DNA of 64,000 nt. It comes from Desulfobulbus sp. (lineage in GTDB: Bacteria > Desulfobacterota > Desulfobulbia > Desulfobulbales > Desulfobulbaceae). The stretch lies in contig QZJD01000005.1 of assembly GCA_003604995.1 (NCBI GenBank), positions 1 through 64,000 of the forward strand, given 5' to 3'. Position numbers and translations under genes: made by a program. The notes beneath the pieces are model-generated. The model was not told the origin of the DNA. It made no database searches and was given only the letters and a program-made list of their open reading frames with translations. Below, one piece after another: positions 13,531 through 42,727 of this stretch; position 1 is the first letter of the stretch; each line of letters begins with the position of its first letter.

Positions 13531-13552
13531 GCTCCCTTAAGGGGAAGGGAGC
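13531..13552. terminator. hairpin between convergent trmFO and the Wzy-like gene
   Basis: GCTCCCTT (13531-13538) and AAGGGAGC (13545-13552) form a perfect 8-bp stem with a 6-base loop. It begins 3 bases after the trmFO stop and includes the stop codon of the opposite gene. No T-run follows on either strand, so it may act as a bidirectional 3'-end stabiliser or a weak terminator. Confidence 0.5.
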
Positions 13553-15951: not shown

Positions 15952-16633
15952 CGACTATTTTCAGGGGGTTGCCGTCGGTGAGCAGAGCAGCCTGTTCCGG
16001 GCCGAGCAATTTTTCAACAAGGGTTCTGGCTTTTCTCAAAACCGGGGTTCTGAAAGAAGGCGAGTGGGAATCCGTGGCGATGTAATGGGTAAGCCCCCGG
16101 GTCAGTAAATAATGGGCGCAACGCTGGCAGTCAGGGCCGAAATCGCCGGTGACGCTGGCCGCGGTCAACTGGATCTGGGCGCCGGCCTCAACCAGTTCAA
16201 CCAGACGACCCGGTGCGGCAAGGACATCTCCGTTGCGTTCGGGGTGGGCGATTATGGGTTGATAACCGCGATTGACCAGATCAGTGATCAGACGGACGGC
16301 CCCGGCGGGCAGGTAGGCATGGGGAAACTCGATAAGGAGATACCCGCTGCCTGCCAGGGTATGGGTTGCGGCCAGGTCCAGGGCCAGAGAGTGGGGAATT
16401 TCGAAGCCGGGGACAATGACCACCGAAAGACGGCGGGAACTGATTTCCCGGTTCAAATTGCCTACCTCGAGCGCCAGTCGTTCCGGGGTGGGAAATACCC
16501 CGTTGGTGTGCGGGGTGGCGATGATGACCCTAATCCCGTCAGCGGCGGCTCTTTCGGCCATGACCAGCGAGGTGGCGAGATCCTGTGATCCATCATCCAG
16601 GCCCGGAGCAATATGACAGTGAATATCGATCAC
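15926..16633 (-). CDS. PHP-type protein-tyrosine phosphatase (CpsB/YwqE family)
   Basis: A 235-residue PHP-fold metalloenzyme. The N-terminal metal motif is MIDIHCHIAPGLDDG (H5, H7), with further ligands in TPHTNG, GFEIP, AHPERN and the final TDSHS. This family dephosphorylates the tyrosine autokinase that controls chain length in polysaccharide export. Its start overlaps the kinase stop by 4 bases (16630-16633), so the opposing enzymes are made together. Gram-negative Wzc systems typically use a low-molecular-weight phosphatase (Wzb) instead; a PHP enzyme paired with a single-chain Wzc-like kinase is a mixed arrangement. Confidence 0.85.
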   Translation of the reverse strand: MIDIHCHIAPGLDDGSQDLATSLVMAERAAADGIRVIIATPHTNGVFPTPERLALEVGNLNREISSRRLSVVIVPGFEIPHSLALDLAATHTLAGSGYLLIEFPHAYLPAGAVRLITDLVNRGYQPIIAHPERNGDVLAAPGRLVELVEAGAQIQLTAASVTGDFGPDCQRCAHYLLTRGLTHYIATDSHSPSFRTPVLRKARTLVEKLLGPEQAALLTDGNPLKIVGDLAAPAE

Positions 16634-18894: not shown

Positions 18895-18913
18895 TATCCG
18901 TCCCTTCCGCGGG

Positions 18914-19726
18914 TTAAAAGAAACTTTCGGGGACGACGATGACATCATCCGGCCGTACGGTCATGTCGAGGGACACGTTTTCGAGGACGGTCTCGGCCCC
19001 GTCAACCATACGAACTATCCTGACCTTGGATTTGGATGCCTTGCCGGTGAAGCCGCCTGCCAAGGTGATCAGTTTGAGGACGGTCATCTGATCGCTGCAC
19101 TTATATGCATTCGGCGACTCGACCTCGCCGGTGACATAACACATTCCGGCCTTGCCGACATAAATAGTGTCGCCGTCGCGAATGTCGATATTTTCTCTCA
19201 TAACCCCACCTTCGATCAGAGATTTCAGGTCGACTTGGATGACATGGTCCTTGCCGTTCTCCAATCGCTTGATCGTCGCCTTTTCACCGAAATCATCCTT
19301 CAGACCCCCCGCTTGGGAGATCAGTTCGAGCAGGGTGACCGGCCCGCGTATTTCTATCAACCCCGGGCGGTTAATGCTGCCGAGAATGACGGCTTTTTTG
19401 CTTCTGAACTCCTGGATGAAAATATTGACCTGCGGATTAATGATGTAGCCATCCGCAAGAAGGGCTCTGATGTGATCCGAGGCGTGATCAACCGTCATTC
19501 CGGAAAGATTGACCGGGCCAAGGAGGGGCATGATGATGACGCCTTCGGCTCCTATCCGGGCTTCGGTCCGCAGATCGTCGTTGTCATAGACCGTTATCCG
19601 GATAACGTCGCCGGGGCCGAGCAGATATTCTGCGGCGTTGCTTGGGTGAACAGTGACGATCAAGAGTGAAATACCAAATGACAGGGAAAGCAGCAGGTTA
19701 AGGAGCAGGGTGGATCTTCCGTGCAT
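18914..19726 (-). CDS. polysaccharide export protein, Wza/OtnA family
   Basis: A 270-residue secreted protein with an N-terminal signal sequence (hydrophobic run LLLNLLLSLSFGISLLIV). It carries the Poly_export motif YLLGPGDVIRITVYDNDDL and then two SLBB-type units (around SINRPGLIEIRGP and GEVESPNAYKCSDQMTV). It is shorter than E. coli Wza and lacks an obvious lipobox and the long C-terminal amphipathic helix, so it may need the beta-barrel protein encoded upstream to cross the outer membrane. ATG 19726 is chosen since the signal peptide starts there. The kinase follows 19 bases later. Confidence 0.85.
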   Translation of the reverse strand: MHGRSTLLLNLLLSLSFGISLLIVTVHPSNAAEYLLGPGDVIRITVYDNDDLRTEARIGAEGVIIMPLLGPVNLSGMTVDHASDHIRALLADGYIINPQVNIFIQEFRSKKAVILGSINRPGLIEIRGPVTLLELISQAGGLKDDFGEKATIKRLENGKDHVIQVDLKSLIEGGVMRENIDIRDGDTIYVGKAGMCYVTGEVESPNAYKCSDQMTVLKLITLAGGFTGKASKSKVRIVRMVDGAETVLENVSLDMTVRPDDVIVVPESFF

Positions 19727-19848
19727 TATACGGGTACCGAAAGGCCTAGGCAATGATCGCATTGATCCGCATGTTCAGGGAGTCTGTTGTACTTTTCTTA
19801 GTATGATACGCTGTGCAACAGTTTTTGTCATCCCCTCAATTCACCCAA

Positions 19849-21369
19849 TCAAAGGGCAAACTTCAGTCCTAGAAAAACGGTCTGAGTGGAAAAATCGTAT
19901 TCGATGTCGCTGGAATCACGATTGTCATAGGTATAGGACAGTTCGGCCGTCAGCCAGTCACGGAAAATATACCTCAAGGCCGGCCTGATGGAATATGTTC
20001 TATCCAGGCGAGGTTCACCTGTTCGGCTTGATCCGTACTCCAGGAAGTCGGAGTGGTCATTCTCCTCGTACGCCAATTCACAGGATCCGGCCAACCGGTA
20101 AGTAAAGCGCTGTTCGTATCGCAGTTTGCCGGCGATGGTATCCATGCCGCTGATGCCCAGGATGCTTGTTTCTTCCAGTGCCTTGTACGCAATAAAGGAT
20201 ATTTTGGTTTTGTCGCTGATCAAATAATCGAAAACAGCCTCCATGGAAAAGGCACTGCTGTCTGAAACATCGATGTTCTTGTATTCTTTAGTTTGGTATC
20301 CGCCTTTGGCTGAAATGGAAGTCCTGGAACCACTCTTCCAGGTCACCCCTCCATAGTAAAAGGCGTTGATGCTGTCGTTGTTCGTTTCTTCGTCATAGGA
20401 GACAAGCCCGTACGAGTATTCGGCGAAAAAGGAGGTTTTCGGGCTCAAATGGTAGGTAGCGGAAAGGGTATAGGTATTGTCCGACCGGCTCAACCAGTCA
20501 TTTTCATCGTCATAGGCTAAAATGAAATTGGTGTAGGAAACGGCAAGCGTATAGTATTTCCGCAATTCGTACTTCAGACCGCTGTTGAACAGGTTGGCGG
20601 TGTAGTCTCGAATGTATGCGGGCTGGAGAGAATCCGAGATGTCCGGCTGGGCAGCGGTGTCCTGGTCTGCCGGAAAACTTCCCCTGTCGAAACGGTCACG
20701 ATCCGAGGAAAAGTTGTCAAGGATGTGGAAAGAAAGGCCGGAAGGCATATTGTAGCGTGCGAATGCCAAGGCCTGCCAGAAGGTTTCGTTCAGGTCGCTA
20801 TCGGCCGAATAGAGTTTATAATCCAGCGTGCCGGCCAGATAGGCCTGGAAACGTTCAAATGATTTGCTGTCGGTGATCAGGAAACGGTATCCCCCGACGG
20901 CACCGTTGTTGAGGGTGAGGTTGAGAGGGGCTTCCTCCATGCGGGGAAATCCCAACCAGATGCCGGGCGAGACAACGGTAAGGAAATTGCTTTTCTTGCC
21001 GTCACGGATATTGTAGAGGTTGTCGGTCCACTCTTCTTTGAGCAGCAGGGAGGGGTGGAGAAAGCCCCCGCGTAATCCGAAAAGGCGGTCAGGGTCATCG
21101 GACCCGAACAGGTAGCCGGGACCGGATACCGGCCCGTTGTTCGCGTCCGGGACAATGATGGATTCAGAAAGGACGGGATCAGGGGCTTCGGGCGGTAGGC
21201 CGGGGCCATTTTCCCGGGCAGCCGCATCCGGCTGGTCTGCGTCGACGGTGATGGCGAGGGGCTTGGTGTCCCCCGCATGAAGTTGAGATGCGGCGGGAAG
21301 GGCTGCAAGGGCCAGACAGGTAAAGCACACTGCGCAGGCCTGCACCATGTCAAAGGATGAAACAATCAT
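19849..21369 (-). CDS. outer-membrane beta-barrel protein of the polysaccharide locus
   Basis: A 506-residue secreted protein with a signal peptide (VQACAVCFTCLALAALPAASQLHAG). Most of the protein is alternating aromatic/polar strands (for example YTLAVSYTNFILAY and TAELSYTYDNRD), and the last residues, TQTVFLGLKFAL, form a typical outer-membrane terminal strand. It resembles beta-barrel porin-2 or EpsL-like proteins of exopolysaccharide loci. ATG 21369 is selected because it opens the signal peptide and lies 28 bases after the previous gene; the frame is open to 21606. The probable role is an outer-membrane conduit or organiser for the polymer. Confidence 0.75.
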   Translation of the reverse strand: MIVSSFDMVQACAVCFTCLALAALPAASQLHAGDTKPLAITVDADQPDAAARENGPGLPPEAPDPVLSESIIVPDANNGPVSGPGYLFGSDDPDRLFGLRGGFLHPSLLLKEEWTDNLYNIRDGKKSNFLTVVSPGIWLGFPRMEEAPLNLTLNNGAVGGYRFLITDSKSFERFQAYLAGTLDYKLYSADSDLNETFWQALAFARYNMPSGLSFHILDNFSSDRDRFDRGSFPADQDTAAQPDISDSLQPAYIRDYTANLFNSGLKYELRKYYTLAVSYTNFILAYDDENDWLSRSDNTYTLSATYHLSPKTSFFAEYSYGLVSYDEETNNDSINAFYYGGVTWKSGSRTSISAKGGYQTKEYKNIDVSDSSAFSMEAVFDYLISDKTKISFIAYKALEETSILGISGMDTIAGKLRYEQRFTYRLAGSCELAYEENDHSDFLEYGSSRTGEPRLDRTYSIRPALRYIFRDWLTAELSYTYDNRDSSDIEYDFSTQTVFLGLKFAL

Positions 21370-21397
21370 GAGGCCGTTGGCAGAGTGTGGTTTGTCG

Positions 21398-21838
21398 CTA
21401 TTCGAAGGTCGAAGGGCTTGCCGTAACGGATCTTCCTCCAGGGGATGAAGCGTTCCCCGGAATAAATGCCGGTGCGGCATTGGCTTTTTCTTCCATCTCC
21501 TCGGCACACTGGGCCAGGGCAAGTTCATACCCCTGCTGCACGGTTTCCACGGGAATGTCGTTGGCCGCGGCCGCGTCCTGAATATAGGCCGGCGGAACCA
21601 AGGCACAGTAAAGGGCTTTGATCAATTCCTCGGGCTTGAGGTCCTCAAGGGGAAGCGAGGTTTGGATGAGCTGGTCCGGAGAGACGCCTAAGCTCAGGGC
21701 GTTGACCACCGCCTCGTCGATACCCCTGACCGAGTAGGTCTCGCGGAATTCTCTGACCCAGTCTTGTGCCAGGGCCACGCTGCAGCTGACGAGGAGCAGG
21801 AGCAGGGCAATACTCTTTTTTATCATGATTTTTCTCAT
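21398..21838 (-). CDS. secreted small protein at the head of the polysaccharide operon, unrecognised
   Basis: A 146-residue protein with a signal peptide (KKSIALLLLLVSCSVALA, cleaved near QDW) and an all-helical mature part. Two phrases, VNALSLGVSPDQLIQTSLPLE and IKALYCALVPPAYIQDAA, look like two copies of a short helical unit. Two cysteines (CALVPP and AQCAEE) could form a disulphide. ATG 21838 is used; ATG 21826 is nearly as good. It is probably the first gene of the operon and may be a periplasmic accessory. I recognise no family. Confidence 0.6.
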   Translation of the reverse strand: MRKIMIKKSIALLLLLVSCSVALAQDWVREFRETYSVRGIDEAVVNALSLGVSPDQLIQTSLPLEDLKPEELIKALYCALVPPAYIQDAAAANDIPVETVQQGYELALAQCAEEMEEKANAAPAFIPGNASSPGGRSVTASPSTFE

Positions 21839-28150: not shown

Positions 28151-30133
28151 ATGGCTGAAACGATCCGAATTCTGCTGGTGGAAGATCTGCCCACGGACGC
28201 GGAGCTTGTTGAGAGGGAAGTCCGGGGCGGCCTGCCCGGGAGCCAGATTTTATGGGTAGATAACCCGCGCGACTATCTCGCTGCCCTCAACACCTTTCAG
28301 CCGGACGCCATCCTGTCCGACTACTCACTGCCTGGTTTTGACGGGATGAACGCCCTGCTTCTGGCGATGGAACGGATGCCGGAAACGCCTTTTATTCTGG
28401 TCACGGGCGCCATGAACGAGGAGACGGCGGTGGCGTGCATGAAGGCCGGGGCCTGGGATTATATCCTCAAAGACCATTTGCAACGCCTGGTGCCCGCGAT
28501 TTTGAATTCGCTGGAGCGTGGCCGTCAACGCCGGGCACGCAAGGAGGCCGAGGAGGCGCTGGCGGCCAGCGAGGGTGAGTACCGCCGTCTCTCCCATGAA
28601 TTTCAGAGTCTGCTCGATGCATTACCCGACAGCCTTACCTTGATGGATAAAGACCTGAAGGTCCACTGGGCCAACAGTGCAGCATTGAAGTTGTTCGGAA
28701 AAAGGAAGGAGGGTCTGATTGGCCATCGATGTTTCTCTCTGCACAGCCAGGGTGCCGAACCCTGTCAGGACTGCCCGGTAACGGCGAGCTTTGCAAGCGG
28801 AGAACCCGCGAGCCTCGTCACCCCCACTGCCGACGGCAGAATCTGGGACCTCCGGAGCATCCCTCTGCGCGACGACCACGGGGAAATCTCCAGGGTAATC
28901 GAACTCGGCCGTGATATCACCGAGCACCGGAAACTTGAAGCCCAGCTTCGTCAGGCGCAGAAAATGGAATCAGTGGGCAGGCTCGCTGGAGGAATTGCTC
29001 ATGATTTCAATAATATGTTGACGATCATGATCGGCTACGGCGAGCAGGTGATGAGCCAGCTCAAGGAAGAGAACCAGGCGCGGAGCGACATTGCGGAAAT
29101 GGTAAAAGCAGCCCGTCGCTCGGCGGAACTGACCCGTCAGTTGCTGGCGTTTTCCCGCCAACAGGCTGTTTTGCCCCAGGTGATCGATCTGAACAAGCGA
29201 ATCAACAGCGGTCTGAAGATGCTGAAACGCCTGGTGGGGGAGGATATCGATCTCCATTTTATCCCGGCCGTCAAGCTCGACATGATTTACATTGATCCTG
29301 GCCAGATCGAGCAGATCCTCGCCAACCTGACGGTTAATGCCAGAGACGCCATCGTCGGCACGGGACTGATTCGCATCGAAACCGGCAACATCGTTCTTGA
29401 CGAATCATACTGTACTTTTCACGAAGGATTTGTGCCCGGCGATTATGTTGTGGTAACATTCAGTGATACCGGTTCGGGCATGGACCAGGATACCCAGCAG
29501 AAAATTTTTGAGCCGTTTTTCACCACCAAGGAGGAGGGCAAGGGAACCGGTTTGGGGTTGGCGACGGTGTACGGCATCGTCAAGCAGAACAACGGATTTA
29601 TCAACGTCTACAGCGAGCCGGGGGAAGGGACGACCTTTAAAATTTATTTTCCGCGCCATAGAGGATCGGCCGGCGGGAGAAAAGAGGTGCGGATGGAGCA
29701 GGTCAGCGGCGGGTCCGAAACGCTGTTGCTCGTCGAGGATGAGGGTCAGATTTTGGCCATGTGCAAGCGCCTTCTGGAAAAACAGGGTTACCGTGTCCTG
29801 GCCGCCGGTTCGCCCGAGGAGGCTCTGACTCTGTCTCGGCAATTTGCCGGGGAGATTCATCTGCTGGTGAGTGATCTGATCATGCCGCACATGAACGGCC
29901 GGGAGCTCTACGAACAGATTCACGGTTGCCGGCCCGGCATCAGACTTCTGATCATGTCAGGATATACGGCGGATATCATCGCCAAAAGGGGCGGTCTGGT
30001 CGAAGGCGACCATTTCATCCAGAAGCCGTTCACCAACACGGATTTCATCGGCAAGGTGGCGCAGGTCCTCGCTCAGGGCCAGAACGGAGAAGGGCTGCCG
30101 AGCGGCAATGAGGAGGGGCGCCATGACGGCTGA
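28151..30133 (+). CDS. hybrid histidine kinase: REC-PAS-HisKA-HATPase-REC
   Basis: A 660-residue soluble protein with receivers at both ends. REC 1 (1-120) starts TIRILLVEDLPTDAELV and has its Asp in AILSDYSLPG. The PAS domain (about 145-265) carries GHRCFSL...EPCQDCPV. H284 sits in [13 protein letters not shown], the ATPase has NLTVNARDAI and GTGLGLATVYG, and REC 2 has LLVSDLIMPHMNG. It receives phosphate at its N-terminal receiver from another kinase, or is regulated by it. ATG 28151 follows AAAAAGGG; a TTG at 28136 is the alternative. The next gene starts 11 bases before this one ends. REC 2 belongs to a different subfamily from the other local receivers. Confidence 0.88.
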   Translation: MAETIRILLVEDLPTDAELVEREVRGGLPGSQILWVDNPRDYLAALNTFQPDAILSDYSLPGFDGMNALLLAMERMPETPFILVTGAMNEETAVACMKAGAWDYILKDHLQRLVPAILNSLERGRQRRARKEAEEALAASEGEYRRLSHEFQSLLDALPDSLTLMDKDLKVHWANSAALKLFGKRKEGLIGHRCFSLHSQGAEPCQDCPVTASFASGEPASLVTPTADGRIWDLRSIPLRDDHGEISRVIELGRDITEHRKLEAQLRQAQKMESVGRLAGGIAHDFNNMLTIMIGYGEQVMSQLKEENQARSDIAEMVKAARRSAELTRQLLAFSRQQAVLPQVIDLNKRINSGLKMLKRLVGEDIDLHFIPAVKLDMIYIDPGQIEQILANLTVNARDAIVGTGLIRIETGNIVLDESYCTFHEGFVPGDYVVVTFSDTGSGMDQDTQQKIFEPFFTTKEEGKGTGLGLATVYGIVKQNNGFINVYSEPGEGTTFKIYFPRHRGSAGGRKEVRMEQVSGGSETLLLVEDEGQILAMCKRLLEKQGYRVLAAGSPEEALTLSRQFAGEIHLLVSDLIMPHMNGRELYEQIHGCRPGIRLLIMSGYTADIIAKRGGLVEGDHFIQKPFTNTDFIGKVAQVLAQGQNGEGLPSGNEEGRHDG

Positions 30134-30821
30134 CCGGGAAAAACAGGCTGAATGCGCCAAGGTTTGTGAAAAAGAGTCTGCAGGCGGGACGATGCGGGAG
30201 ATTGTCCACTCTCTCAACAATGTTCTGGCGGTGATCCAACTCAATGCCTCCATGGCGCTGGAAAGCAGGGCCGGGGAAGATGCCATGGAGGAAATCGGGG
30301 AAATACTGGACGCTGTTGCCCGGGGCAGGGAACTGGTCAGGGATCTGTCCGATATGCAGCATCCCGGCCCGGCCGTGTGCCGGGCTGAAGAGAGCGCGTC
30401 TCGGGTTTCTCCTGCCCTGAACATGTCCGGTGGCATGGCTGCCGATCGGTCAGGAGAGGGAGCGAAGATCCTGTTTGTTGATGATGAAGTCGAGTTGGCC
30501 CGGCTGGGACAGAGGCTCCTGATAAAAAATGGGTATCAGGTAGAATTTTTCACGGACAGCCAGGCCGCTTTAGAGAGATTCGCGGCCAATCCTCAAGAAT
30601 ATGCCCTGGTGATCACCGATCAGAATATGCCGGGTTTGAAAGGGTCGGAACTTGCGCACCGGATTTTGCAGGTCCGGCCGGAGATGCCGATCCTCCTCTG
30701 CACCGGTTTCAGTGCGGGCATTGCTCGCCGGAACTTGCTGGAACAGGGCTTTTGCGGCTTGCTGGTAAAGCCGTACCAGCCGAAGGAATTGCTCTCCGCG
30801 GTTCGTGGCGTTATTGCGTGA
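30123..30821 (+). CDS. kinase-like dimerisation helix pair fused to a receiver, no ATPase domain
   Basis: A 232-residue protein. Residues 20-85 look like a HisKA dimerisation domain with H29 in MREIVHSLNNVLAVIQ, comparable to [11 protein letters not shown] in the neighbouring kinases. A linker leads directly to a receiver (about 115-230) with D166 in LVITDQNMPGLKG. The catalytic ATPase domain between them is absent, with no trace of N, G1 or G2 boxes. It could accept phosphate at H29 from a partner kinase in trans, act as a phosphotransfer protein, or form mixed dimers. ATG 30123 follows GGAGGGG and overlaps the upstream hybrid kinase by 11 bases, so partnership with it is likely. Confidence 0.8.
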   Translation: MTADREKQAECAKVCEKESAGGTMREIVHSLNNVLAVIQLNASMALESRAGEDAMEEIGEILDAVARGRELVRDLSDMQHPGPAVCRAEESASRVSPALNMSGGMAADRSGEGAKILFVDDEVELARLGQRLLIKNGYQVEFFTDSQAALERFAANPQEYALVITDQNMPGLKGSELAHRILQVRPEMPILLCTGFSAGIARRNLLEQGFCGLLVKPYQPKELLSAVRGVIA

Positions 30822-30822
30822 A

Positions 30823-30880
30823 GCGGTGAGGTGCAGGGACGTGATCCCTTTTCTCATCCCTGCCGCCGATCGCTCACCGC
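30823..30880. terminator. nested inverted repeat between convergent genes
   Basis: Outer arms GCGGTGAG (30823-30830) and CTCACCGC (30873-30880) enclose inner arms GCAGGGA (30833-30839) and TCCCTGC (30857-30863). The structure starts just after the stop of the receiver gene and covers the last codons of the convergent REC-PAS gene. There is no long T-run. It is a plausible bidirectional terminator or 3' stabiliser. Confidence 0.45.
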
Positions 30881-31699
30881 ACGAGCTATGTACACCCCTC
30901 CGACCACTGTTTTTTCATCTACATCCAGATACGGCGTCATGTTTACTTCGAACTCTGCTTGCAGCCGTTCGTCATAAAAAATTCCCTTTTGAGAAACTCC
31001 GGCAAGAAGTGCCTCCATGTTCCGCCTGGCCGCATCCTGGTCGCTGAAGCCCTGCGTGCTCAGGTAACAGGTTCTGCCGACTATTTCCGAGGGTCCCTTA
31101 CCCAGCATGGCCGCCATTGCCTTGTTCACCCTGACCAGGCAATGTCTTCGGTCGATCAGGGCAATCTGTTCGGTCAGGGAATCCACGGTACGTTCCCATT
31201 CCCGTTTGGCGTGGATGATCATTTTTTCCAGCCGTTGTTTGGCCTCCAGCTCTTTTTTCAAGGCGTTATTGGCTTTGCGCAGGGCATTCTCCATGGTTTC
31301 GTTATAGCCGTACGTCATTTGCGCCTGCATCAGAGCTCGCTCGATCCGATTCATCAGAAACTCTATGTTTTCGATGGGTTTGGTAATATAATCCCATGCC
31401 CCGGAACGAAGGGCGTTAATGATGTCCTCCTTGGCGCCGACGCCGGAAAAGATGATTACGGGTGTTTTAGGCGATTCCATCACGATTTCTTCGAGCAGGT
31501 CAAAGCCGTCCATGACCGGCATGCGAAGATCGGTCAGAATCAGTGCCGGCCGGTTCTTGCGGAATAAGGAGAGCGCTTCTTCGCCGTTTCGGGCCTCCAG
31601 GGTTTCATAGCCTTTTTGTTTGATGAACTTGGCTACGGATTTACGTAAATACTCATCGTCTTCCGCGATCAGAATTTTTGTCTCAGCATTTTCCAGCAT
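30854..31699 (-). CDS. response regulator with PAS output (REC-coiled coil-PAS)
   Basis: A 281-residue protein. The receiver is at 5-120 with D57 in [13 protein letters not shown], a charged coiled coil spans about 130-170, and a PAS domain covers about 170-278 (TEQIALIDRRHCLVRVNKAM, then EIVGRTCYLS). There is no DNA-binding or enzymatic output, so it is probably an adaptor that passes a signal through protein contact. The PAS domain keeps the first cysteine (GRTC) of the local cysteine-PAS family but not the later CxxCP pair. ATG 31699 is chosen because the receiver begins at once; the frame is open to 31732. Confidence 0.8.
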   Translation of the reverse strand: MLENAETKILIAEDDEYLRKSVAKFIKQKGYETLEARNGEEALSLFRKNRPALILTDLRMPVMDGFDLLEEIVMESPKTPVIIFSGVGAKEDIINALRSGAWDYITKPIENIEFLMNRIERALMQAQMTYGYNETMENALRKANNALKKELEAKQRLEKMIIHAKREWERTVDSLTEQIALIDRRHCLVRVNKAMAAMLGKGPSEIVGRTCYLSTQGFSDQDAARRNMEALLAGVSQKGIFYDERLQAEFEVNMTPYLDVDEKTVVGGVYIARAVSDRRQG

Positions 31700-31762
31700 G
31701 GTGGACGCTCCGTTCGTATTTGTTGAAAGCACGGGTTGGTTTCAAGGCAATCCCGCTCCTGG

Positions 31763-32635
31763 TTACTGCAACATCACCTTGAGCCACTGCATGTCTCTGC
31801 TGTTGACGTTGCCTTTTTCCGCTTGATCCTGAGTCATTACGTCGTACAGGGGGAGTTGTGCCTGTGCCTTGCAATCGGGGCAAAGGCTGGATGAAATCTC
31901 CACTTCAGCGTGTTCCTGAAGGTACGATTCGATCTGTTCCCAATATCCCTTGTCATCGCGAACCTGTTTACAGGAAGGGCAGATGGGCAGCATGCCCTTC
32001 AGTTGCTTGACCTGTTCCAGGGATGCGCGCAGTTCATCAATCAGGCGCTGCTTGTCCTGTTCGAGCCTTTTTCTTTCGGTGATGTCGTTGTAGGATTCAA
32101 TGATACCGACCAGATCGCCGAAGGCGTTTCTAACGGGTTTTGCCTTGATGAGGAAGTGGCGGCGGATTCCGTCAAGAATTCTTGCTCCTTCGCTGGTGAC
32201 CTCTTTTTCGCCTTTTTTGATCCGATCAAGAGGGGAGTTGGTGATTCTGCACGCCTCATCCTCTTGACCCGAACGGCCATTGCCTTTTATTTCGTCGTGC
32301 ATGGCCCTGCCCAATGTTTCCAGGTAGGGGGTGTTGGCATCGATGATATTCCCCTTGAAATCGATGATGCACATCGGAAAGGAATGGTTGAAGGCGTTCC
32401 TGAGGAGCTTCTGTTCCTTTTCATAAAAAAATATCCTGAAGAGGATCATATAGAGGAGGATGCTGAATGACACGATCAGGATTCGGGTATAAACGTTTTC
32501 GAAGATTTTGTTGAACGTTTCCGAATCCTCAGCAAATATGCCGGGGATGAACATGGAGGCAACAAGGGAATTGACCACCCAGATCAACAATCCGAAGATG
32601 AAGAGAAACGGGAGGCTTTGCAGTATGCGTTTCAT
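31763..32635 (-). CDS. membrane PAS protein with C-terminal four-cysteine motif
   Basis: A 290-residue protein with two membrane helices (about 8-30 and 52-71), a PAS domain (about 80-185) ending in a short coiled coil, and a compact tail. The tail begins CPSCKQVRDDKGYWEQIE near residue 216 and ends SSLCPDC near 254, giving two CxxC pairs about 33 residues apart that look like a zinc site. This tail occurs at the ends of many PAS and receiver proteins of anaerobes and has no established function that I know of. There is no kinase, cyclase or DNA-binding domain. ATG 32635 follows AAAAGGAAACGCACC. The REC-PAS gene is 63 bases downstream. Confidence 0.75.
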   Translation of the reverse strand: MKRILQSLPFLFIFGLLIWVVNSLVASMFIPGIFAEDSETFNKIFENVYTRILIVSFSILLYMILFRIFFYEKEQKLLRNAFNHSFPMCIIDFKGNIIDANTPYLETLGRAMHDEIKGNGRSGQEDEACRITNSPLDRIKKGEKEVTSEGARILDGIRRHFLIKAKPVRNAFGDLVGIIESYNDITERKRLEQDKQRLIDELRASLEQVKQLKGMLPICPSCKQVRDDKGYWEQIESYLQEHAEVEISSSLCPDCKAQAQLPLYDVMTQDQAEKGNVNSRDMQWLKVMLQ

Positions 32636-32703: not shown

Positions 32704-33204
32704 TCAGAAAACGATTAGTTCAGGTTTGTGAAATTTACCGCGGTAGAATTCATTTTTTTGAGCCTCCCAGAAGACGACCTCACGATTCTCGTTGACGAAA
32801 ACATTGGCCACGTGACGCTCGCCTCGCGCCGTGGTGATGTACATGACGCCGAAGGCATAGTTTCGCATCGGCACCATGGCAGCGATGGCGTAATCGTCGC
32901 AATCCCAGTCTGGTCGGACATGAAACCGGCTCATGGCAGCCACCTTGTCGTTATCGGCAAGGGCGTATTTGGCATCACTCAGCTTGATGAACACGTTGCC
33001 GAAATAGCCGGTCAGGATTTTGTGCAGTTCATGGGCGCTGATCTCTGTCCCCCTGCCGCGGTTTTCCGTGGAAACGGACACAAACATGTCAACATCGGTC
33101 CGGTGGTAGCTGCACGCGGCCGTCAGGACGAGCTGAGTCATAATGAAAACAACGGTCAGGGCGCGGGCAACAGTCTGTCGTTCATGGCGCATCATCCTTT
33201 TCAT
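32704..33204 (-). CDS. lipoprotein with cysteine-peptidase-like DCDDYA motif
   Basis: A 166-residue predicted lipoprotein with signal FIMTQLVLTAAC and lipid cysteine C31. The mature part has WDCDDYAIAAM, then NYAFGVMYITTARGERHVANVFVNEN and VVFWEAQKNEFY. A Cys in an acidic DCDDYA helix, a later His before a strand and a Glu/Gln on the next strand follow the order of papain or transglutaminase-like folds. They recall the peptidase domain of MOA-type agglutinins. Activity is an inference. The start overlaps the stop of the upstream small gene by 4 bases, so they form a pair. The region is lower in GC than its surroundings. Confidence 0.6.
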   Translation of the reverse strand: MKRMMRHERQTVARALTVVFIMTQLVLTAACSYHRTDVDMFVSVSTENRGRGTEISAHELHKILTGYFGNVFIKLSDAKYALADNDKVAAMSRFHVRPDWDCDDYAIAAMVPMRNYAFGVMYITTARGERHVANVFVNENREVVFWEAQKNEFYRGKFHKPELIVF

Positions 33205-33632
33205 AACCCACCTCCGTGATCAAGACGTTCGCAATGATACAAATGATTCGGATAGGAATGTTTGGTGCTGTATCCTGATAATTTATTGATTATCTCCGTA
33301 ATCTGTTGATAGTCGTTGTGGGCAAATTCGATAAAACGGGGATGGAGGAGATATGATTTATGAATCATTTCCTTGTTGTCGTTACATAGGATGATAATGA
33401 CACGATTTCCGGTAAAAATATCTTTAATTTTAATTAATAAATCAATATCATGTAATTTAGTAATTACTAAAATGAAAAGCTCGGCCAGGTCTGAAGGAAA
33501 TTTTGAATATTTATTTTTATTATCAATAGTATGGATAACAAAATTATCTTGACAATTTCTTGCAGTATTGATGCATCGTATGAGCCTTGATGCCTCATCA
33601 GCCGACTCTGACGTATAAAGATGAATGTTCAT
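33201..33632 (-). CDS. small AT-rich gene, possible degenerate receiver-like fold, unrecognised
   Basis: A 143-residue protein without signal peptide or membrane helix. Alternating hydrophobic strands and helices (DLAELFILVITKLHD, NRVIIILCNDNKEM, HPRFIEFAHNDY) resemble a flavodoxin/receiver-like fold, but no phosphorylatable Asp pocket is visible. Base composition is clearly richer in A and T than the neighbours, which suggests recent acquisition. ATG 33632 is preferred because GGGAG lies about 9 bases upstream; the frame is open to 33719. It is coupled to the cysteine-peptidase-like lipoprotein. The upstream gap holds a strong palindrome. Confidence 0.55.
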   Translation of the reverse strand: MNIHLYTSESADEASRLIRCINTARNCQDNFVIHTIDNKNKYSKFPSDLAELFILVITKLHDIDLLIKIKDIFTGNRVIIILCNDNKEMIHKSYLLHPRFIEFAHNDYQQITEIINKLSGYSTKHSYPNHLYHCERLDHGGGL

Positions 33633-33793
33633 GCTCTGTTCTCCCGCCAATACTTCAAAGGGATTGCTGTATGTGTTCTCTGTCCTATGGTAAAGCAGGA
33701 TGCGTGCCAGCTTGCACAAATGGAACTTAGTGACGATAATTCAGTATGTTGAACGAATAACAGATTCTCTGGCTGGTCAAAGGGGAGATGCGA

Positions 33794-33834
33794 TTTGTTT
33801 ACAAAAGTTGACAGTGTTCACATTTGTGAACACT
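33794..33834. promoter_or_regulatory. double palindrome in the gap upstream of the small AT-rich gene
   Basis: TTTGT-TT-ACAAA (33794-33805) is followed by AGTGTTCACA-TT-TGTGAACACT (33813-33834), a perfect 10-bp inverted repeat with a 2-base centre. A plus-strand TTGACA (33808-33813) touches the larger palindrome. The 252-base gap (33633-33884) separates the end of the NtrC-type regulator from the start of the small AT-rich gene. The form is that of an operator for a dimeric transcription factor, about 165 bases upstream of that gene. Confidence 0.6.
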
Positions 33835-33884: not shown

Positions 33885-35279
33885 TTATCTGCTGGCGGGT
33901 TCGTGTTTTTTAAGGAGCTGATAGAGGCGGGTGCGGGAGAGGCCGGATATGCGGCAGGCGTCCGTTACGCTGTTGCGGGCAAACGTCATCAGGTCGCGAA
34001 GATAGGCCCTTTCAGCCGCGGATTTGTACTCGGACCAGGACGGCGGCGGGGTTGTGTCGTCTGCGGAGAATTGAGCAGGGGGTGCCGCGGGCGTTGGGCG
34101 AATGGCCGCCTGGGCCTGCAGGACGCGGAGATGCTCGGGCAGGTGCCTGGTGAAGAGGGTGTGATGGTTGACGGCGTTGACAAAGGCATGCTCAATAACC
34201 TGAAATAACTCTCGAATATTTCCAGGCCAGGGGTAATTCGTCAGCGCGTTGATAAAATCCGGCGCCATGCCTTTTGTATCGAGCCCGTGGCGCTGGCAGA
34301 GTTTTTCCAGATACGCGACGGTCAGATCCTTGACGTCCCCTTGCCGGTCTCGCAGAGGAGGAAGATGGATCCAAATCCCCTGCAGCCGAAAGAGAAGATC
34401 GCTGCGGAATATGCCGTTACGAACTCCTTCGTCGAGGTTGCGATTGGTCGCGGCCACCACCCTGAAATCACTTTTGATTTCCCTGGTGTCACCCACCGGG
34501 CGATAGCGATGCTCCTGGAGTACCCGCAGGAAGTTTTTTTGCAAGCCGATGGGCAATTCGCCGATCTCGTCGAGAAAAAGGGTCCCGCCGTCGGCATGTC
34601 TGATCAAGCCGTCTCTCGCCTTGTCCGCTCCGGTAAATGCGCCCCGGGCGTGACCGAACAGGGTGCTTTCGATGAGTGTTTCCGGGAGGGCCGCGCAGTC
34701 GACCACCACGAAGTTGCCCCCGGCACGCTGGCTGTTGTCGTGAATGACCCGAGCAAAAACTTCCTTGCCTGTGCCGGTTTCACCGGACAGCAGGACGCTG
34801 GTGTCGCAGGCGGCGGCCTTGGCGACCAGGTCGAGGCTGGCGAGCAACTGCGGGCTGTTACCGATGATGCCGCCTCGTTTCAGGGCCACCGGTATGGTTT
34901 TGATTCGTTGTTTTTCCGCCCGGTATTCGAGGGCGCGGGTCAGGTGCAGCAAAAGCTCCCGCACAACGTTCGGTTTTTCAATATAGCTCCAGGCTCCGCT
35001 GGAGATGGCCTGTTGGGCGCCGTTGGGGTCTCCCTTGCCGGTGATGATGATGACTTCGGGTGCGGAGGGGACGGTTTTGAACCCGGGCAAAAAGTCCAGG
35101 CCGTTGCCGTCTGGCATCTGGACGTCAAGGAACACCACGTCAAAGGCATTCTCGCGAGCCATGCGCAGCCCCTCGTTCAGGGTCACCGTCCCGCGGGCAT
35201 GGTGACCGGCTCGCCGCAGGTGCTCGGTCAGCATCCCGCAAAGGACCTGATCGTCATCTACGACCAGGACGTCAGCCAT
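33885..35279 (-). CDS. NtrC-family sigma-54 response regulator (REC-AAA+-HTH)
   Basis: A 464-residue activator of sigma-54 RNA polymerase. The receiver (1-115) has D52 in VVFLDVQMPDG. The AAA+ domain (about 135-370) has Walker A GETGTGKE, the sigma-54 contact loop GAFTGA and Walker [12 protein letters not shown]. The C-terminal Fis-type helix-turn-helix ends SVTDACRISGLSRTRLYQLLKK. ATG 35279 overlaps the stop of the hybrid kinase by 8 bases, making this kinase its natural partner. The frame is open to 35309, but the receiver begins right at 35279. It is one of two DNA-binding regulators in the window. Confidence 0.92.
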   Translation of the reverse strand: MADVLVVDDDQVLCGMLTEHLRRAGHHARGTVTLNEGLRMARENAFDVVFLDVQMPDGNGLDFLPGFKTVPSAPEVIIITGKGDPNGAQQAISSGAWSYIEKPNVVRELLLHLTRALEYRAEKQRIKTIPVALKRGGIIGNSPQLLASLDLVAKAAACDTSVLLSGETGTGKEVFARVIHDNSQRAGGNFVVVDCAALPETLIESTLFGHARGAFTGADKARDGLIRHADGGTLFLDEIGELPIGLQKNFLRVLQEHRYRPVGDTREIKSDFRVVAATNRNLDEGVRNGIFRSDLLFRLQGIWIHLPPLRDRQGDVKDLTVAYLEKLCQRHGLDTKGMAPDFINALTNYPWPGNIRELFQVIEHAFVNAVNHHTLFTRHLPEHLRVLQAQAAIRPTPAAPPAQFSADDTTPPPSWSEYKSAAERAYLRDLMTFARNSVTDACRISGLSRTRLYQLLKKHEPASR

Positions 35280-36861
35280 GATCAAGAACCTTCCTGACGA
35301 TTTCGGCAAGTTCCCGCCTGACCACCGGCTTCATGATATATTCCCGGATGCCCAGGGCCAGGGCCTGCTTCCGGTCCAGGTTCTCGCTGAAACCGGTGCA
35401 CATGATGACGGGCATCTTCGGTCGGAGAGCAAGGATCTCCCGGGCGAGTTCCTTGCCGGTCAACCCGGGCATGGTCATGTCAGTGATGATCAGGTCGAAG
35501 GAATCAGGGGCGGCCTGAAACGCTTCAAGGGCTGCCCGGCTGTCACTGTGGGCGGTTACCTGGTAGCCGAGCTCATGGAGGCAGCGTTTCAGCCATGCGA
35601 CAAGCTCGGATTCGTCATCAATGACCAGAATCTGCTCCTCGCCGCGAGGGAGAGGCCCGGTGGGCGGAAGAGTCGCCGCTGCCTCCTCGGTCAGCGCCGG
35701 CAGGATAATCTGAAAATCAGCGCCCTTGCCTTTTTCGCTGCTGACCCAGATATCACCTCCCAGCGACTTGACTATGCCGTGCACCACCGACAGGCCAAGT
35801 CCGGTTCCTTCGCTCAGCGGCTTGGTTGTAAAAAAAGGTTCGAATACCCGATCCAGATTATCCCGGTCAATGCCATGCCCGGTGTCCTTGACCCGCAGAA
35901 GCAGGTAACCGGCGATGTTTCGCCCCCCGTCCCTGGGTCGGTAACCGCTCGGCAGACTTTGTAGATGAGAGAGGGAAACGGTCAGCTCTCCACCGCTTTC
36001 CCGCATGGCATATCTGGCGTTGGTGCAGAGGTTCATGAGCACTTGATGGATCCTTCCCGGGTCAGCCAGCACTGGTGGGCATTCGGCATCCACCCAGTCC
36101 CTGATGACTATGGTTGCCGGGAAGGACGCCTTGAGTAATTTCAGGATTTCCTTGAGGATGAACTGGATGTATACCGGTTTGGATTCATGATCGTCCTGCC
36201 GGCTGAAGGTGAGGATCTGCCTGACCAGTTCCGTGGCTCGGTTCGCCGCCTGGAGCACCTTGTCGAGATCCTGGCTGGGTTGGCTTTCCGCGGGGAGTTC
36301 CGCCTGCGCCATCTGGGCATAGCCATTGATGATCGCCAGGATGTTGTTGAAGTCGTGGGCAATCCCTCCAGCCAGGGTCCCGATGGCCTCCATTTTCTGG
36401 GAATGGTGCAGTTCTTCTGTTCGTTTTTTGATTTCCTCCTCGAGATAGTGCTGATAGCGCTTGTTTTCCCGGATAAGGTCGATTCGTTCCAGCGCACGGT
36501 TGATGGCATGCTCCAGAACGGAGACGTCCAGGATCGGTTTGACCAGGTAATCGGAAGCACCGAGCTGCAGGGTTTTCAGGGCGTCGTTGATACCGCCGGC
36601 CCCGGAAACGATGATCACTGGAAATTTTTCCAGATCGGTTCCCAGCTCGGCCAGGACCTCAAAGCCGTCCATGACCGGCATGCGCAGATCAAGCAGCATC
36701 AGGTCCGGCCGTTCCCGCCGGTACTTTTCCATTCCTTCCCGGCCGTTTCCAGCGGAAACGACATCGTAACCGAGATCCTTGAGAAGCTTGGTCGCACTTT
36801 TGCGCATCAGCAGGTCATCGTCGATGAGCAGAATTTTCTTGGTGCCGTCCGATTCGGTCAT
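35272..36861 (-). CDS. hybrid histidine kinase: REC-HisKA-HATPase-REC
   Basis: A 529-residue soluble kinase. The N-terminal receiver (about 8-125) has its Asp in [13 protein letters not shown], a coiled linker follows, and the histidine is H169 in [13 protein letters not shown]. The ATPase has [17 protein letters not shown] and [11 protein letters not shown]. The C-terminal receiver has [14 protein letters not shown] and belongs to the same paralogous set as those at 22067, 24599 and 30123. There is no sensor domain, so input probably arrives through the first receiver, perhaps from the five-PAS kinase encoded directly upstream. ATG 36861 is chosen by the start of the receiver; the frame is open to 36957 and no start has a strong binding site. 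Confidence 0.87.
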
Positions 36862-37020
36862 GTCGCGGTCCGTGGCTTTCAGCGGTTTGTCTTGTGATAC
36901 GCAGACCTGTATTCCCGGCATAGGGAGGCTCATGTCTGTCCGTGCGGGCTGAGGCATGCAACGGCTGGAGCGTATCGGTCAGTTTCCGGATGGTTTTTTG
37001 CAAGGCTTTATCTAGAGGAA

Positions 37021-39750: not shown

Positions 39751-39933
39751 GCACGTTTCGATGAAAGGGTTGCGGAGGCTCCGGCATGGGACCGGCTTCC
39801 TCTGCCGCCGGGCGGATATCTCCGGTTTTCGGGTTCAGGTCAACCGAAACGTCGTTCGCTGGAGGTAAACAGGAGGATCGGCAAGCGGTTTGACCCGGTT
39901 TCAAATCGTTTTCTTTGCCAATAAGGTCCATTA

Positions 39934-39944
39934 TATACTAGTAT
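39934..39944. promoter_or_regulatory. TATACT box with overlapping ATACTAGTAT palindrome
   Basis: In the divergent gap between the five-PAS kinase and the ABC exporter, a consensus-like -10 TATACT (39934-39939) overlaps a perfect 10-bp palindrome ATACTAGTAT (39935-39944). No good -35 lies at 17 bases. It may be a controlled promoter for the plus-strand exporter. Confidence 0.3.
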
Positions 39945-40039
39945 CGCGGGGAAGGAAAATTTTTAACCGGAGGGAGCGGCGGTACGGACCGGCAGGTATT
40001 TTATGCTCCGGCTCCGTAAGCTCGGGACGCGGCGGCGCT

Positions 40040-41884
40040 GTGAAATCAAAGAAGCACATATTGGCATCGGCAATCAATGCCTGGCTGAAATTGCTGCCCT
40101 GCTTTGCCAGGGCCTGCCGACTGCTCTGGAATACGGCTCCGGGCTGGCTTATTCTCTGGGGAGCGCTACTGCTCGCATCCGGTCTGTTGCCTGTTGCAAC
40201 GGTATATTTAAGTCGCGAGATCGTTGATCGTCTGGCGGCGTCCCTGGGTTCCGGAGCCCATTTTCAAGTCATGCTGCCGGTCATCTGGCCGTTGGCCGCC
40301 CTTGTCGCCATTCAGCTGTTGCTGGTGGCCCTGGGCTCTGCATCGGGCCTGATCCGCATGCAGCTCTCCCAGTTGATACAGGACAGGATTAGTATTCTCA
40401 TCCAGGAGAAGTCCTCTGCCCTTGACCTTTCCTTTTACGACCGGTCCGAGTACTTCGATAAGCTGCACAGGGCGAGAAGTGATGCCGGGTACAGGCCGAT
40501 TGAGCTGATGGAATCCATGGGCACCCTGTTCCGCAACGCCATTACTCTCGCGGCCATGGCCTCCGTGCTGGTGCCCTACAGTATTTTAGCGCCTGTGGCT
40601 CTGCTGATCAGCACGCTTCCGGCGTTGTATGTCGTGCTGGCCCACCGGCTGGCGCAATATTCCTTGAACCTGCGCAATACCGAGCCGCAACGGCGCGCCT
40701 GGTACTGCGAATGGGTTCTTGCCAGCAGGGAGCATGCGGCTGAGATTCGCGTCTTTGACCTCTCCCGGTATTTTCAGATGACATTCGCTGCGCTTCGCCA
40801 CCGTCTCAGAAACGAGTCGTTTGCGCTCTTCAGGTCGCAAACCGTTGCTGAACTCGTTTCATCCTGCTTCGCCATGCTCGTCATGGGACTGGCCATGGGC
40901 TGGATGGTCTGGCGGGCGATTGCGGGAGCCGTGACCATGGGGGATCTGGCTTTTTTTTATCAGGCGTTCCATCAGGGGCAACGACTGCTGCACTCCCTGC
41001 TCAATGATGTGGGGCAGATGTACAGCAGCAGTCTTTTCCTTGCCGATTTTTTTGCCTTTCTCGACCTGGCTCCGCGGATTGTCTCTCCTCTCCGGCCAGT
41101 GGCGCTGCCCCCGCGTCTTGAGGAGGGAATCCGCTTCACTGACGTTTCGTTTTGCTATCCGGATGAACAACGGGCCGTTGTGGAACATTTTAACCTGTTT
41201 ATTCCGGCCAACCGCATTACCGCCCTTGTCGGCGCCAACGGCGCCGGCAAGAGCACCCTGGTCAAGCTTATCTGCCGGCTCTACGACCCTGATCAGGGCA
41301 TGGTGACCATGGATGGAATTGATATCCGGCACGCAGCAATCCCTGACTTGCGCAGGATGGTGAGCGTGCTGTTTCAGGAACCGGTGCGCTACAATCTCAC
41401 CGTTGCCGAAAACATAAGACTCGGCGATCTGACCGTGGCCGAGGATGATCCGGCGATCATGGCGGCGGCCGTGTCCGCGGGGGCGTTGGAGTTCATCGAT
41501 CGTCTGCCGGCAAAGGAAAAAACCGTGCTCGGCCGCTGGTTTCCAGGCAGCACTGATCTCAGCGGCGGCGAGTGGCAACGTCTTGCCCTGGCCCGCTCTT
41601 TTCTGCGCGGATCACCGATCATCGTCCTGGACGAACCAACCAGTGCCATGGATTCATGGAGCGAGGGGGATTGGCTGCAACGTTTCCGGGAGCTGGCCAG
41701 GGGCCGGACCGTTCTTCTCATCACCCACCGGTTCACCACGGCCATGCAGGCGGATGTGATCCAGGTCATGGACAACGGCCGGATCGTGGAAAGCGGCTCC
41801 CATGACGAGCTGTTCGCACGGGGCGGGCGCTATGCCGCCTCCTGGCACAGACAGATGCAGGGGGTGGCGGCTGGGGAAAATTGA
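40040..41884 (+). CDS. ABC exporter (membrane domain fused to ATPase)
   Basis: A 614-residue half-transporter that should work as a homodimer. Six membrane helices span about residues 20-310. The ATPase follows with Walker A GANGAGKST, signature LSGGEWQRLALA, Walker B IIVLDEPTSAMD and switch histidine in LLITHRF. All catalytic residues are present. The start is unclear: GTG 40040 gives a normal N terminus before the first helix, while the frame is open to 39890 with unlikely sequence. A GGAGGG at 39968 has no fitting in-frame start nearby. kdsB lies 81 bases downstream behind its own promoter-like element. A lipid or peptide substrate is possible but cannot be read from the sequence. Confidence 0.82.
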   Translation: MKSKKHILASAINAWLKLLPCFARACRLLWNTAPGWLILWGALLLASGLLPVATVYLSREIVDRLAASLGSGAHFQVMLPVIWPLAALVAIQLLLVALGSASGLIRMQLSQLIQDRISILIQEKSSALDLSFYDRSEYFDKLHRARSDAGYRPIELMESMGTLFRNAITLAAMASVLVPYSILAPVALLISTLPALYVVLAHRLAQYSLNLRNTEPQRRAWYCEWVLASREHAAEIRVFDLSRYFQMTFAALRHRLRNESFALFRSQTVAELVSSCFAMLVMGLAMGWMVWRAIAGAVTMGDLAFFYQAFHQGQRLLHSLLNDVGQMYSSSLFLADFFAFLDLAPRIVSPLRPVALPPRLEEGIRFTDVSFCYPDEQRAVVEHFNLFIPANRITALVGANGAGKSTLVKLICRLYDPDQGMVTMDGIDIRHAAIPDLRRMVSVLFQEPVRYNLTVAENIRLGDLTVAEDDPAIMAAAVSAGALEFIDRLPAKEKTVLGRWFPGSTDLSGGEWQRLALARSFLRGSPIIVLDEPTSAMDSWSEGDWLQRFRELARGRTVLLITHRFTTAMQADVIQVMDNGRIVESGSHDELFARGGRYAASWHRQMQGVAAGEN

Positions 41885-41906
41885 CCAGGGAAGATGTCAT
41901 TGGGCG

Positions 41907-41936
41907 TTGCCAATCTCCATCGGAAAAGAGTATATT
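41907..41936 (+). promoter_or_regulatory. candidate sigma-70 promoter upstream of kdsB
   Basis: TTGCCA (41907-41912) and TATATT (41931-41936) are 18 bases apart, and the kdsB start is 29 bases further on. The box pair is among the better matches in the window. It would let kdsB be expressed independently of the exporter. Confidence 0.45.
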
Positions 41937-41965
41937 CAACATTTTAGTCCCAAAAAGGAATTACC

Positions 41966-42727
41966 ATGCAGACCAGTCCGCCAAAGGTTGTCGCCATTAT
42001 TCCGGCGCGCTATCATTCCAATCGCTTCGAAGGCAAGCCGCTCGCCCGCATCATGGGCAAGCCCATGATTCAGCACGTGGTGGAGCGGGCACGGAAGGTT
42101 GCACTTCTGTCCCGGGTGGTGGTGGCCACCGATGATGAGCGGATCGCCGCAGCCGTGCGTTCTTTCGGAGGCGAGGTGGTTTTGACCCGCAGCGACCACG
42201 CCACCGGCACGGACCGTCTGGCAGAGGCGGCCAGCCTGCTGGATATTGCTGAACAGGACATCATCGTCAACATCCAGGGCGACCAGCCTCTGTTTTCCGC
42301 CGAGATCGTCGGCCAGGTCGCCGGGCCCCTCCTGGACGACCCAGCCCTGCCCATGGCCACCCTGATTTACAAGATCGTCCGCCCCGAGGAAATCGATGAT
42401 CCCAACCATGTGAAGACGGTCTTTGACCGGCACGGCAACGCCCTTTATTTCTCACGGGCCTCCATTCCCTTTCAGCGCAATCCGGAGGAATTGGTGCGGC
42501 CGACCTACTACAAGCATCTCGGCTTTTATGCCTACCGCAAGGGGTTCTTGCTCACATTCGTCGGTCTGCCGGAAGGGGAATGGGAGCGATTCGAGAAACT
42601 GGAGCAGCTCAGGGCGCTGGAATACGGGTACCGGATCCAGGTGGTTCTCACCAATCACGATTCCATTGAGGTCGATACCCCCAGGGATATTGAACGGGTC
42701 GAAGAGGTGCTGGCCGGGAAGGGCTGA
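41966..42727 (+). CDS. kdsB: 3-deoxy-manno-octulosonate cytidylyltransferase
   Basis: KdsB activates KDO as CMP-KDO for the inner core of lipopolysaccharide. The 253-residue length is normal. Marks are the nucleotide-binding start IIPARYHSNRFEGKPL, HATGTDRLAEA, NIQGDQPL and YKHLGFYAYRKGFLL. ATG 41966 follows AAAAAGGAATTACC. It shows that the host builds LPS with KDO. No kdsA, kdsC or kdsD is adjacent, and its neighbours are an exporter and malate dehydrogenase. Confidence 0.95.
   Translation: MQTSPPKVVAIIPARYHSNRFEGKPLARIMGKPMIQHVVERARKVALLSRVVVATDDERIAAAVRSFGGEVVLTRSDHATGTDRLAEAASLLDIAEQDIIVNIQGDQPLFSAEIVGQVAGPLLDDPALPMATLIYKIVRPEEIDDPNHVKTVFDRHGNALYFSRASIPFQRNPEELVRPTYYKHLGFYAYRKGFLLTFVGLPEGEWERFEKLEQLRALEYGYRIQVVLTNHDSIEVDTPRDIERVEEVLAGKG

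Follow-up and report, generated by a model that had tools for sequence, protein, structure and literature searches.

Two small genes on the reverse strand, at positions 32704-33632 of the 64,000-nucleotide window analysed here (the whole stretch of the Desulfobulbus sp. contig), raise the question of whether they form an acquired cassette of their own or the output of the regulatory genes around them. The first, 33201-33632, encodes from its ATG a receiver-like protein of 143 aa without a phospho-acceptor pocket, hereafter the partner, and is the first gene of the predicted operon; the second, 32704-33204, encodes a 166-aa lipoprotein that is a candidate papain-like cysteine peptidase. A sequence-only reading of this DNA had described them as an AT-richer two-gene unit in a signalling island, possibly an acquired envelope effector with its cytoplasmic partner. 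Its account of the layout stands: the genes overlap by four bases (ATGA, 33201-33204), and hybrid kinases, receiver-domain (REC) proteins and an NtrC-type regulator lie around them. A GGAGGTG ribosome site is found ahead of the lipoprotein start. What that reading missed is the sigma-54 promoter, the enhancer sites and the membership of the partner in a widespread, promoter-linked gene family. The unit is defined by its promoter, that is, by a sigma-54 element, two palindromic enhancer sites and the adjacent NtrC-type regulator.

Scored with sigma-54 consensus weights, the predicted -24/-12 element at 33694-33710 on the reverse strand (CTGGCACG-CATC-CTGCT; in full, CTGGCACGCATCCTGCT) reaches 24 of a possible 25.5, with GG and GC correctly spaced, and lies 61 nt before the partner ATG. 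It is the better of the two sites in the 64 kb that score at least 22, the other being at 14003-14019. The 252-nt gap between regulator and partner contains this element together with two 18-bp palindromes of the form TGT-N2-AC-N4-GT-N2-ACA, namely TGTTCAC-AAAT-GTGAACA at 33815-33832, 104 nt before the -24 element, and TGTCAAC-TTTT-GTAAACA at 33796-33813, 85 nt before it. These are the only exact matches to the pattern in the window, and of the four in the whole 2.64-Mb genome the remaining two fall within genes of a different contig. As the mark of a large regulon the motif was rejected, since exact sites numbered 14 against 8 for a reversed control (G000, G071, G070 and G110; forward counts); accordingly, only sites with an adjacent sigma-54 element were used. 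The arrangement resembles the sigma-54 regulons of Desulfovibrio as described in the excerpts of PMC4641369 and PMC3333781 considered here, in which the activator adjoins its target operon, activator sites are built from TGT/ACA half-sites (those 12 bp apart being one class reported in PMC4641369) and the promoters serve envelope and exopolysaccharide functions. Neither the partner family nor the lipoprotein is mentioned in these excerpts.

The gene on the far side of the gap (33885-35279, reverse strand) encodes an NtrC-type sigma-54 activator response regulator, with Response_reg and Sigma54_activat by Pfam, a GAFTGA loop in its AAA+ domain and, by eye, a C-terminal helix-turn-helix; its counterpart in the congener G071 is 64% identical. 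The likely cognate kinase is a hybrid histidine kinase with the Pfam make-up REC-HisKA-HATPase-REC (35272-36957, reverse strand), which has an orthologue of 52% identity at the same position in G071. On the other side of the pair, and on the same strand, follow a membrane PAS protein with C-terminal CxxC pairs (31763-32635, by Pfam), probably the third gene of the operon, and a REC-PAS protein (30854-31732, by Pfam), possibly the fourth. In G071 a similar PAS protein comes after the partner (45% over 92 aa), and the island there encodes a protein 53% identical to the REC-PAS protein. The paired CxxC motifs of the PAS protein (CPSCKQVRDDKGYWEQ...CPDC) lie in a C-terminal part that has no Pfam match and recur in its G071 counterpart (L013 3830-4819). 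At 30108-30821, on the forward strand, stands a HisKA-REC protein without an ATPase domain.

We consider it rather probable that the pair belongs to an operon that carries the output of a two-component system, one with its own dedicated sigma-54 activator, and that this operon encodes an adaptor, the partner, and a peptidase lipoprotein. The hybrid kinase (35272-36957) would phosphorylate the regulator (33885-35279), which would bind the tandem palindromes (33796-33832) and drive RNA polymerase-sigma-54 from 33694-33710 into the partner and lipoprotein genes and probably also into the PAS and REC-PAS genes. Of these steps, it is the binding of the palindromes that we infer most firmly, ahead of the adaptor role and of any cleavage in the envelope. 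The sequence itself shows the layout of the operon, its promoter and enhancer sites, the conservation of the family, and the separate promoter and enhancer site that the lipoprotein has in a second genome; the pairing of kinase and regulator for phosphotransfer, the adaptor role, and the peptidase activity with its substrate are inferred. The partner would be a receiver-fold protein incapable of phosphorylation and most likely a protein-protein adaptor or feedback element acting on the regulator, the kinase or the sensor proteins of the operon. The lipoprotein would be anchored in the envelope, most likely as a small cysteine peptidase of the papain superfamily (Cys102-His131-Glu147), and may process an envelope protein while the system is on.

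The lipoprotein is found in three of the 257 class genomes, its own included; the other two are G071 (about 50-54% identical) and G110, which belongs to another family of the same order. A genome_contigs scan over 84,980 species, which may omit records of the own genome, yielded these two again (JAJRTB010000260.1 and DAOVAI010000001.1), both of them MAGs, and relatives were absent from viral_contigs, phages and plasmids. Three sequences were found, the third cut off by a contig end. The one profile match besides the own genome in the scan of 395 genomes of the phylum, in G409 (E 0.003), covers only profile positions 13-80, before the Cys and the His, and was treated as chance. Whether the pair recurs across genomes had been set beforehand as a check on the sequence-only reading, and indeed all three lipoprotein genomes carry the partner on the same contig, always in the same island, with the two genes overlapping here, 13 nt apart in L024 and 4.2 kb apart in G071. 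In the last of these the lipoprotein gene lies beyond the kinase gene and is read in the opposite direction. Before it stands the one exact enhancer palindrome in the 15-kb locus (L013 9448-9465), followed 116 nt further on by TTGGCACACATGATGCA (L013 9582-9598), which is the best sigma-54 element there; the promoter of the G071 partner is weak (19.5), and there is no near-exact enhancer site before that gene, two points that count against the proposed circuit. With an enhancer site and a sigma-54 element of its own in G071, the lipoprotein therefore seems to be targeted by the regulator independently of the partner, and nothing ties it to the sigma-54 system as well as this predicted co-regulation does.

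What the lipoprotein does is a question with two serious answers. Its lipobox, LTAAC, places Cys31 (codon 33112-33114) in a column invariant in 3/3 relatives, and under lipoprotein sorting rules this residue is the expected lipid anchor. Downstream of it comes the Cys-His-Glu/Gln order that had been proposed from the sequence: the candidate nucleophile Cys102 (codon 32899-32901) in a WDCDDYA block and the candidate catalytic His131 (32812-32814), all conserved in 3/3, followed by the candidate Glu147 (32764-32766) in an E-x-Q with Gln149, conserved in both complete sequences. The best Pfam match, Agglutinin_C (PF18021, E 6.6e-5), spans residues 118-153, which include the His and the Glu and not the Cys, and at 23.7 bits is sub-threshold (gathering cut-off 26.8). 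Two further families match at E 0.11, one of them named for the papain fold and the other one of lectin C-termini; PF18022, which is among the three, we take to be a papain-fold family. Agglutinin_C is matched at E <=10 by two of the three lipoprotein relatives, and a PF18021 search of the 257 class genomes returned the own lipoprotein only, again below threshold. A sequence search of the PDB gave one unrelated chain (E 0.39) and profile searches of the PDB gave none. AlphaFold models the lipoprotein poorly (pLDDT 53); Foldseek found no match to this model at E <=0.001, its best VIA matches were designed and NTF2-like proteins (Z 4.2), and the VIA list held no papain-like chain, an absence that at such a pLDDT shows nothing.

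Likenesses to known peptidases bear on the same question. The order Cys-His-Glu-x-Gln is common to the lipoprotein (C102, H131, E147, Q149) and to MOA, the fungal Marasmius oreades agglutinin whose papain-like domain is Agglutinin_C, in the excerpts of PMC8244254 and PMC4764322 considered here; the residues of MOA are Cys215, His257, Glu274 and Gln276 (PMC8244254), so that His and Glu are 17 apart in that numbering and 16 apart in the lipoprotein. MOA is known to be activated by Ca2+/Mn2+, and calcium activates LapG as well as MOA in the same excerpt of PMC8244254; the lipoprotein likewise has acidic residues around its Cys. Seven residues before the Cys, where MOA has its oxyanion-hole Trp, the lipoprotein has His95, with a conserved Trp100 two residues before the Cys and, unlike the fungal lectin, it is a bacterial lipoprotein without a lectin domain. 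With LapG and DvhG, as far as the portions of PMC13090378 and PMC4866520 considered here describe them, it has in common DC[DE]D[YF] around the nucleophile and an envelope location, its membrane anchoring being as in DvhG. Its W-D-C-D-D-Y-A also resembles the D-C-E-D-F of the LapG encoded in the own genome. The triad of LapG/Peptidase_C93 is, however, Cys-His-Asp, with the Asp of the own LapG 17 residues after the His, whereas the third residue here is Glu147; and LapG and DvhG are controlled by a c-di-GMP receptor next door, whereas the lipoprotein is apparently controlled by transcription. We rejected the idea that it is a LapG orthologue: Peptidase_C93 (PF06035) is not among its Pfam matches up to E 10, hhalign against the own LapG aligned only 21 residues around the motif (probability 2.2%), and the true LapG lies on C18. 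Next to this true LapG-type Peptidase_C93 gene (L133, G000:C18, 1345-2082, reverse strand) are genes for a GGDEF-like membrane protein and a TolC-like protein, both named by eye, which suggests that a Lap adhesin-release system is also present in the own genome. The part of the literature that was searched holds no description of a bacterial MOA-like lipoprotein.

Taken together, the residue order and the sub-threshold Agglutinin_C match suggest a papain-like peptidase, and we put the odds of this at about even. The chief alternative keeps the same sigma-54 operon and makes the lipoprotein a non-enzymatic one, metal-binding or structural, for example a periplasmic modulator of the adjacent PAS membrane protein. 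We regard this as well short of an even chance and still a substantial one, for neither model nor fold search yields a papain fold, the Pfam match does not span the Cys, and the genome already has a true LapG peptidase; it sits poorly, however, with the conservation of Cys102 and His131 in 3/3 and of Glu147 and Gln149 in 2/2, and with the three matching Pfam families all being of papain fold, PF18022 presumably so. The peptidase reading of the lipoprotein, within the sigma-54 operon, is the one carried forward here.

The partner, unlike the lipoprotein, belongs to a common family. A profile built from 11 relatives found it in 71 of the 257 class genomes and in 53 of 395 genomes sampled across the phylum, and the part of the literature that was searched contains no description of it. 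The class loci came from 88 sources, four of which (L084, L088, L091 and L111) had no ORF match, leaving 85 ORFs in 84 loci. A regulator lies directly upstream, on the same strand and within 1 kb, in 57 of the 85, and on the opposite strand in 3; of the remainder, 9 are at contig edges and 16 have neither a regulator nor an edge, which counts against the proposed circuit. For the sigma-54 scan start codons were corrected and one ORF with a region shorter than 30 nt was left out, which gave 56 partner genes that follow a regulator and 28 that do not. In the first group 46 of the 56 have an element with a score of 20 or more ahead of them, where dinucleotide shuffles predict 2.84 and the reverse strand gives 1; in the second group 18 of the 28 do, with 1.16 expected. 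Among other genes of these loci the figure is 27 of 320. Raising the threshold to 22 leaves 26/56, 14/28 and 3/320. The enhancer motif TGTNNACNNNNGTNNACA, allowing one mismatch, turns up in 24 of the 56 gaps, where shuffled sequence gives 0.8 and other stretches 0.95. The enrichment of both promoter and enhancer therefore suggests that the partner gene usually opens a sigma-54 operon adjoining its activator. What follows the partner varies: among 73 partners with a close same-strand next gene of at least 150 aa, 27 of these genes cluster as CheW-like and another 26 form a mixed set of large sensors, the representative of which looks like a chemoreceptor. At one locus, L019, Pfam finds three CheW stretches and an MCP domain.

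At the level of the protein, the window member has no match above chance in Pfam, NCBIfam or PHROGs, and none of the 11 members matches Response_reg (PF00072) at E <=1. Its AlphaFold model was made from three sequences and has a pLDDT of 55; at that confidence receiver domains take the first two places among its VIA matches (Z 9.6 and 8.8), it also matches the receiver-like regulatory domain of CsgD (Z 8.6) and CpaE (8.2), and flavodoxins, TIR domains and decarboxylase wing domains score close behind. The receiver pocket comprises an acidic pair after strand 1 and a phospho-acceptor Asp after strand 3. In an alignment of 82 of the 85 ORFs, those of at least 100 aa, the commonest letters are F-F-Y at the end of strand 1 and A-A after strand 3, so that the acidic pair and the phospho-acceptor Asp appear to be missing throughout the family, as had been predicted when the partner was called receiver-like without an Asp pocket. 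Modelling had been proposed as a check on both proteins; it yielded receiver matches for the partner, and for the lipoprotein no papain-like match. The most constant feature of the partner family is L-x-P-R-[FY], with Pro in 99%, Leu in 94% and Arg in 87% of the 82 rows. The degenerate receivers CsgD, CpaE and FrzS (the last as described in an excerpt of PMC1974792) are likewise receiver-like in fold, a predicted one in the case of the partner, and without a phospho-acceptor; the partner differs from them in being a small stand-alone protein, in its L-x-P-R-[FY] motif and in its place as first gene of a sigma-54 operon. It is unlikely, if worth weighing, that the partner is instead a different domain, of flavodoxin-like or Rossmann type, that binds its own ligand. 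The low confidence of the model and the close scores of the other folds leave room for this, but receivers take the best two matches, with CsgD and CpaE also among the matches, and the genes stand among REC proteins.

Composition and synteny speak to the history of the pair. The partner gene, with 33.3% GC and 32% GC3, falls below every 430-nt stretch of the window that was sampled, and here the claim of AT-richness is borne out; it does not extend to the lipoprotein gene, which at 53.5% GC (GC3 67%) is at about the 14th percentile of 500-nt stretches in a window of 57.9% GC and is close to its signalling neighbours (49-60% GC, GC3 61-72%). Two of three congeners share this extreme AT-richness of the partner gene (33% GC here and 27.5% in G070, over the part covered, L014 6017-6325), the third does not (G071, 52.6%), and the adjoining regulator gene is ordinary. 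The island is flanked by kdsB and an MsbA-like transporter (39890-42727; the MsbA name is by eye) and by exopolysaccharide genes (13537-21606: Wzy_C, CpsB, Wzz/AAA, polysaccharide export and beta-barrel). It is syntenic in G071, with identities of 84% for kdsB, 64% for the regulator, 52% for the kinase, 54% for the lipoprotein and 68% for the export protein. In a tree of 53 regulators, the ones from the own genome, G070 and G071 group together (SH-aLRT 98); nearest to them by path, without strong branch support, is the regulator of L024, whose host is of another family. Synteny and tree thus fit vertical inheritance within the genus, not a recent arrival of two genes, with perhaps one transfer of the whole island. 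An acquired two-gene cassette, for instance an envelope effector with its cytoplasmic partner, is very improbable: the partner's GC content and the restriction of the lipoprotein to a few genomes in two families fit it, but the two genes differ in composition, the lipoprotein being neighbour-like, the island is syntenic in G071, the partner family occurs mostly without the lipoprotein (71 class genomes against 3), the G071 lipoprotein keeps its enhancer site and promoter although the genes are no longer adjacent there, and the island may have moved whole.

The output operon of a dedicated two-component system, in which we place the pair, turns a vague couple of unknown genes into a circuit that can be tested, its promoter and enhancer sites predicted and its regulator and candidate enzyme named. 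It also exposes a protein family that lies mostly behind sigma-54 regulators. If the lipoprotein is a peptidase, it would be a transcription-controlled counterpart of the surface proteases LapG and DvhG, which are controlled by c-di-GMP. A wider reading, which in our view falls a little short of an even chance, is that of a phylum-wide module in which an NtrC-type regulator serves one adjacent sigma-54 operon whose first product, a receiver-like protein dead to phosphorylation, acts as a feedback adaptor for varied outputs. In many genomes the output would be a CheW/MCP array and in others sensors; in the window it would be a lipid-anchored, MOA/LapG-like peptidase of a new type, working at the cell surface and encoded next to an exopolysaccharide locus.

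Several further arrangements were seen in these loci. A cluster of HisKA-REC protein, NtrC-type regulator, pseudo-receiver, three-domain CheW and PAS-rich MCP recurs (L019 694-8385; L015, L016 and L020), with no adjoining CheA gene seen, and may represent an unusual chemosensory pathway whose endpoint is sigma-54 transcription. The HisKA-REC protein upstream of the regulator in L019 has the same make-up as the product of 30108-30821, and similar-looking proteins stand in L015 and L016. Two small helical proteins, ferritin-like and alike by eye, are encoded at the two ends of the G071 island (L013 10195-10791, which has no Pfam match, and L156 3074-3634). Elsewhere in the same genome (L157, G071:C58, 3734-7646), a second NtrC-type regulator gene lies near an exact palindrome and a strong sigma-54 element (24.5), perhaps a paralogous island.
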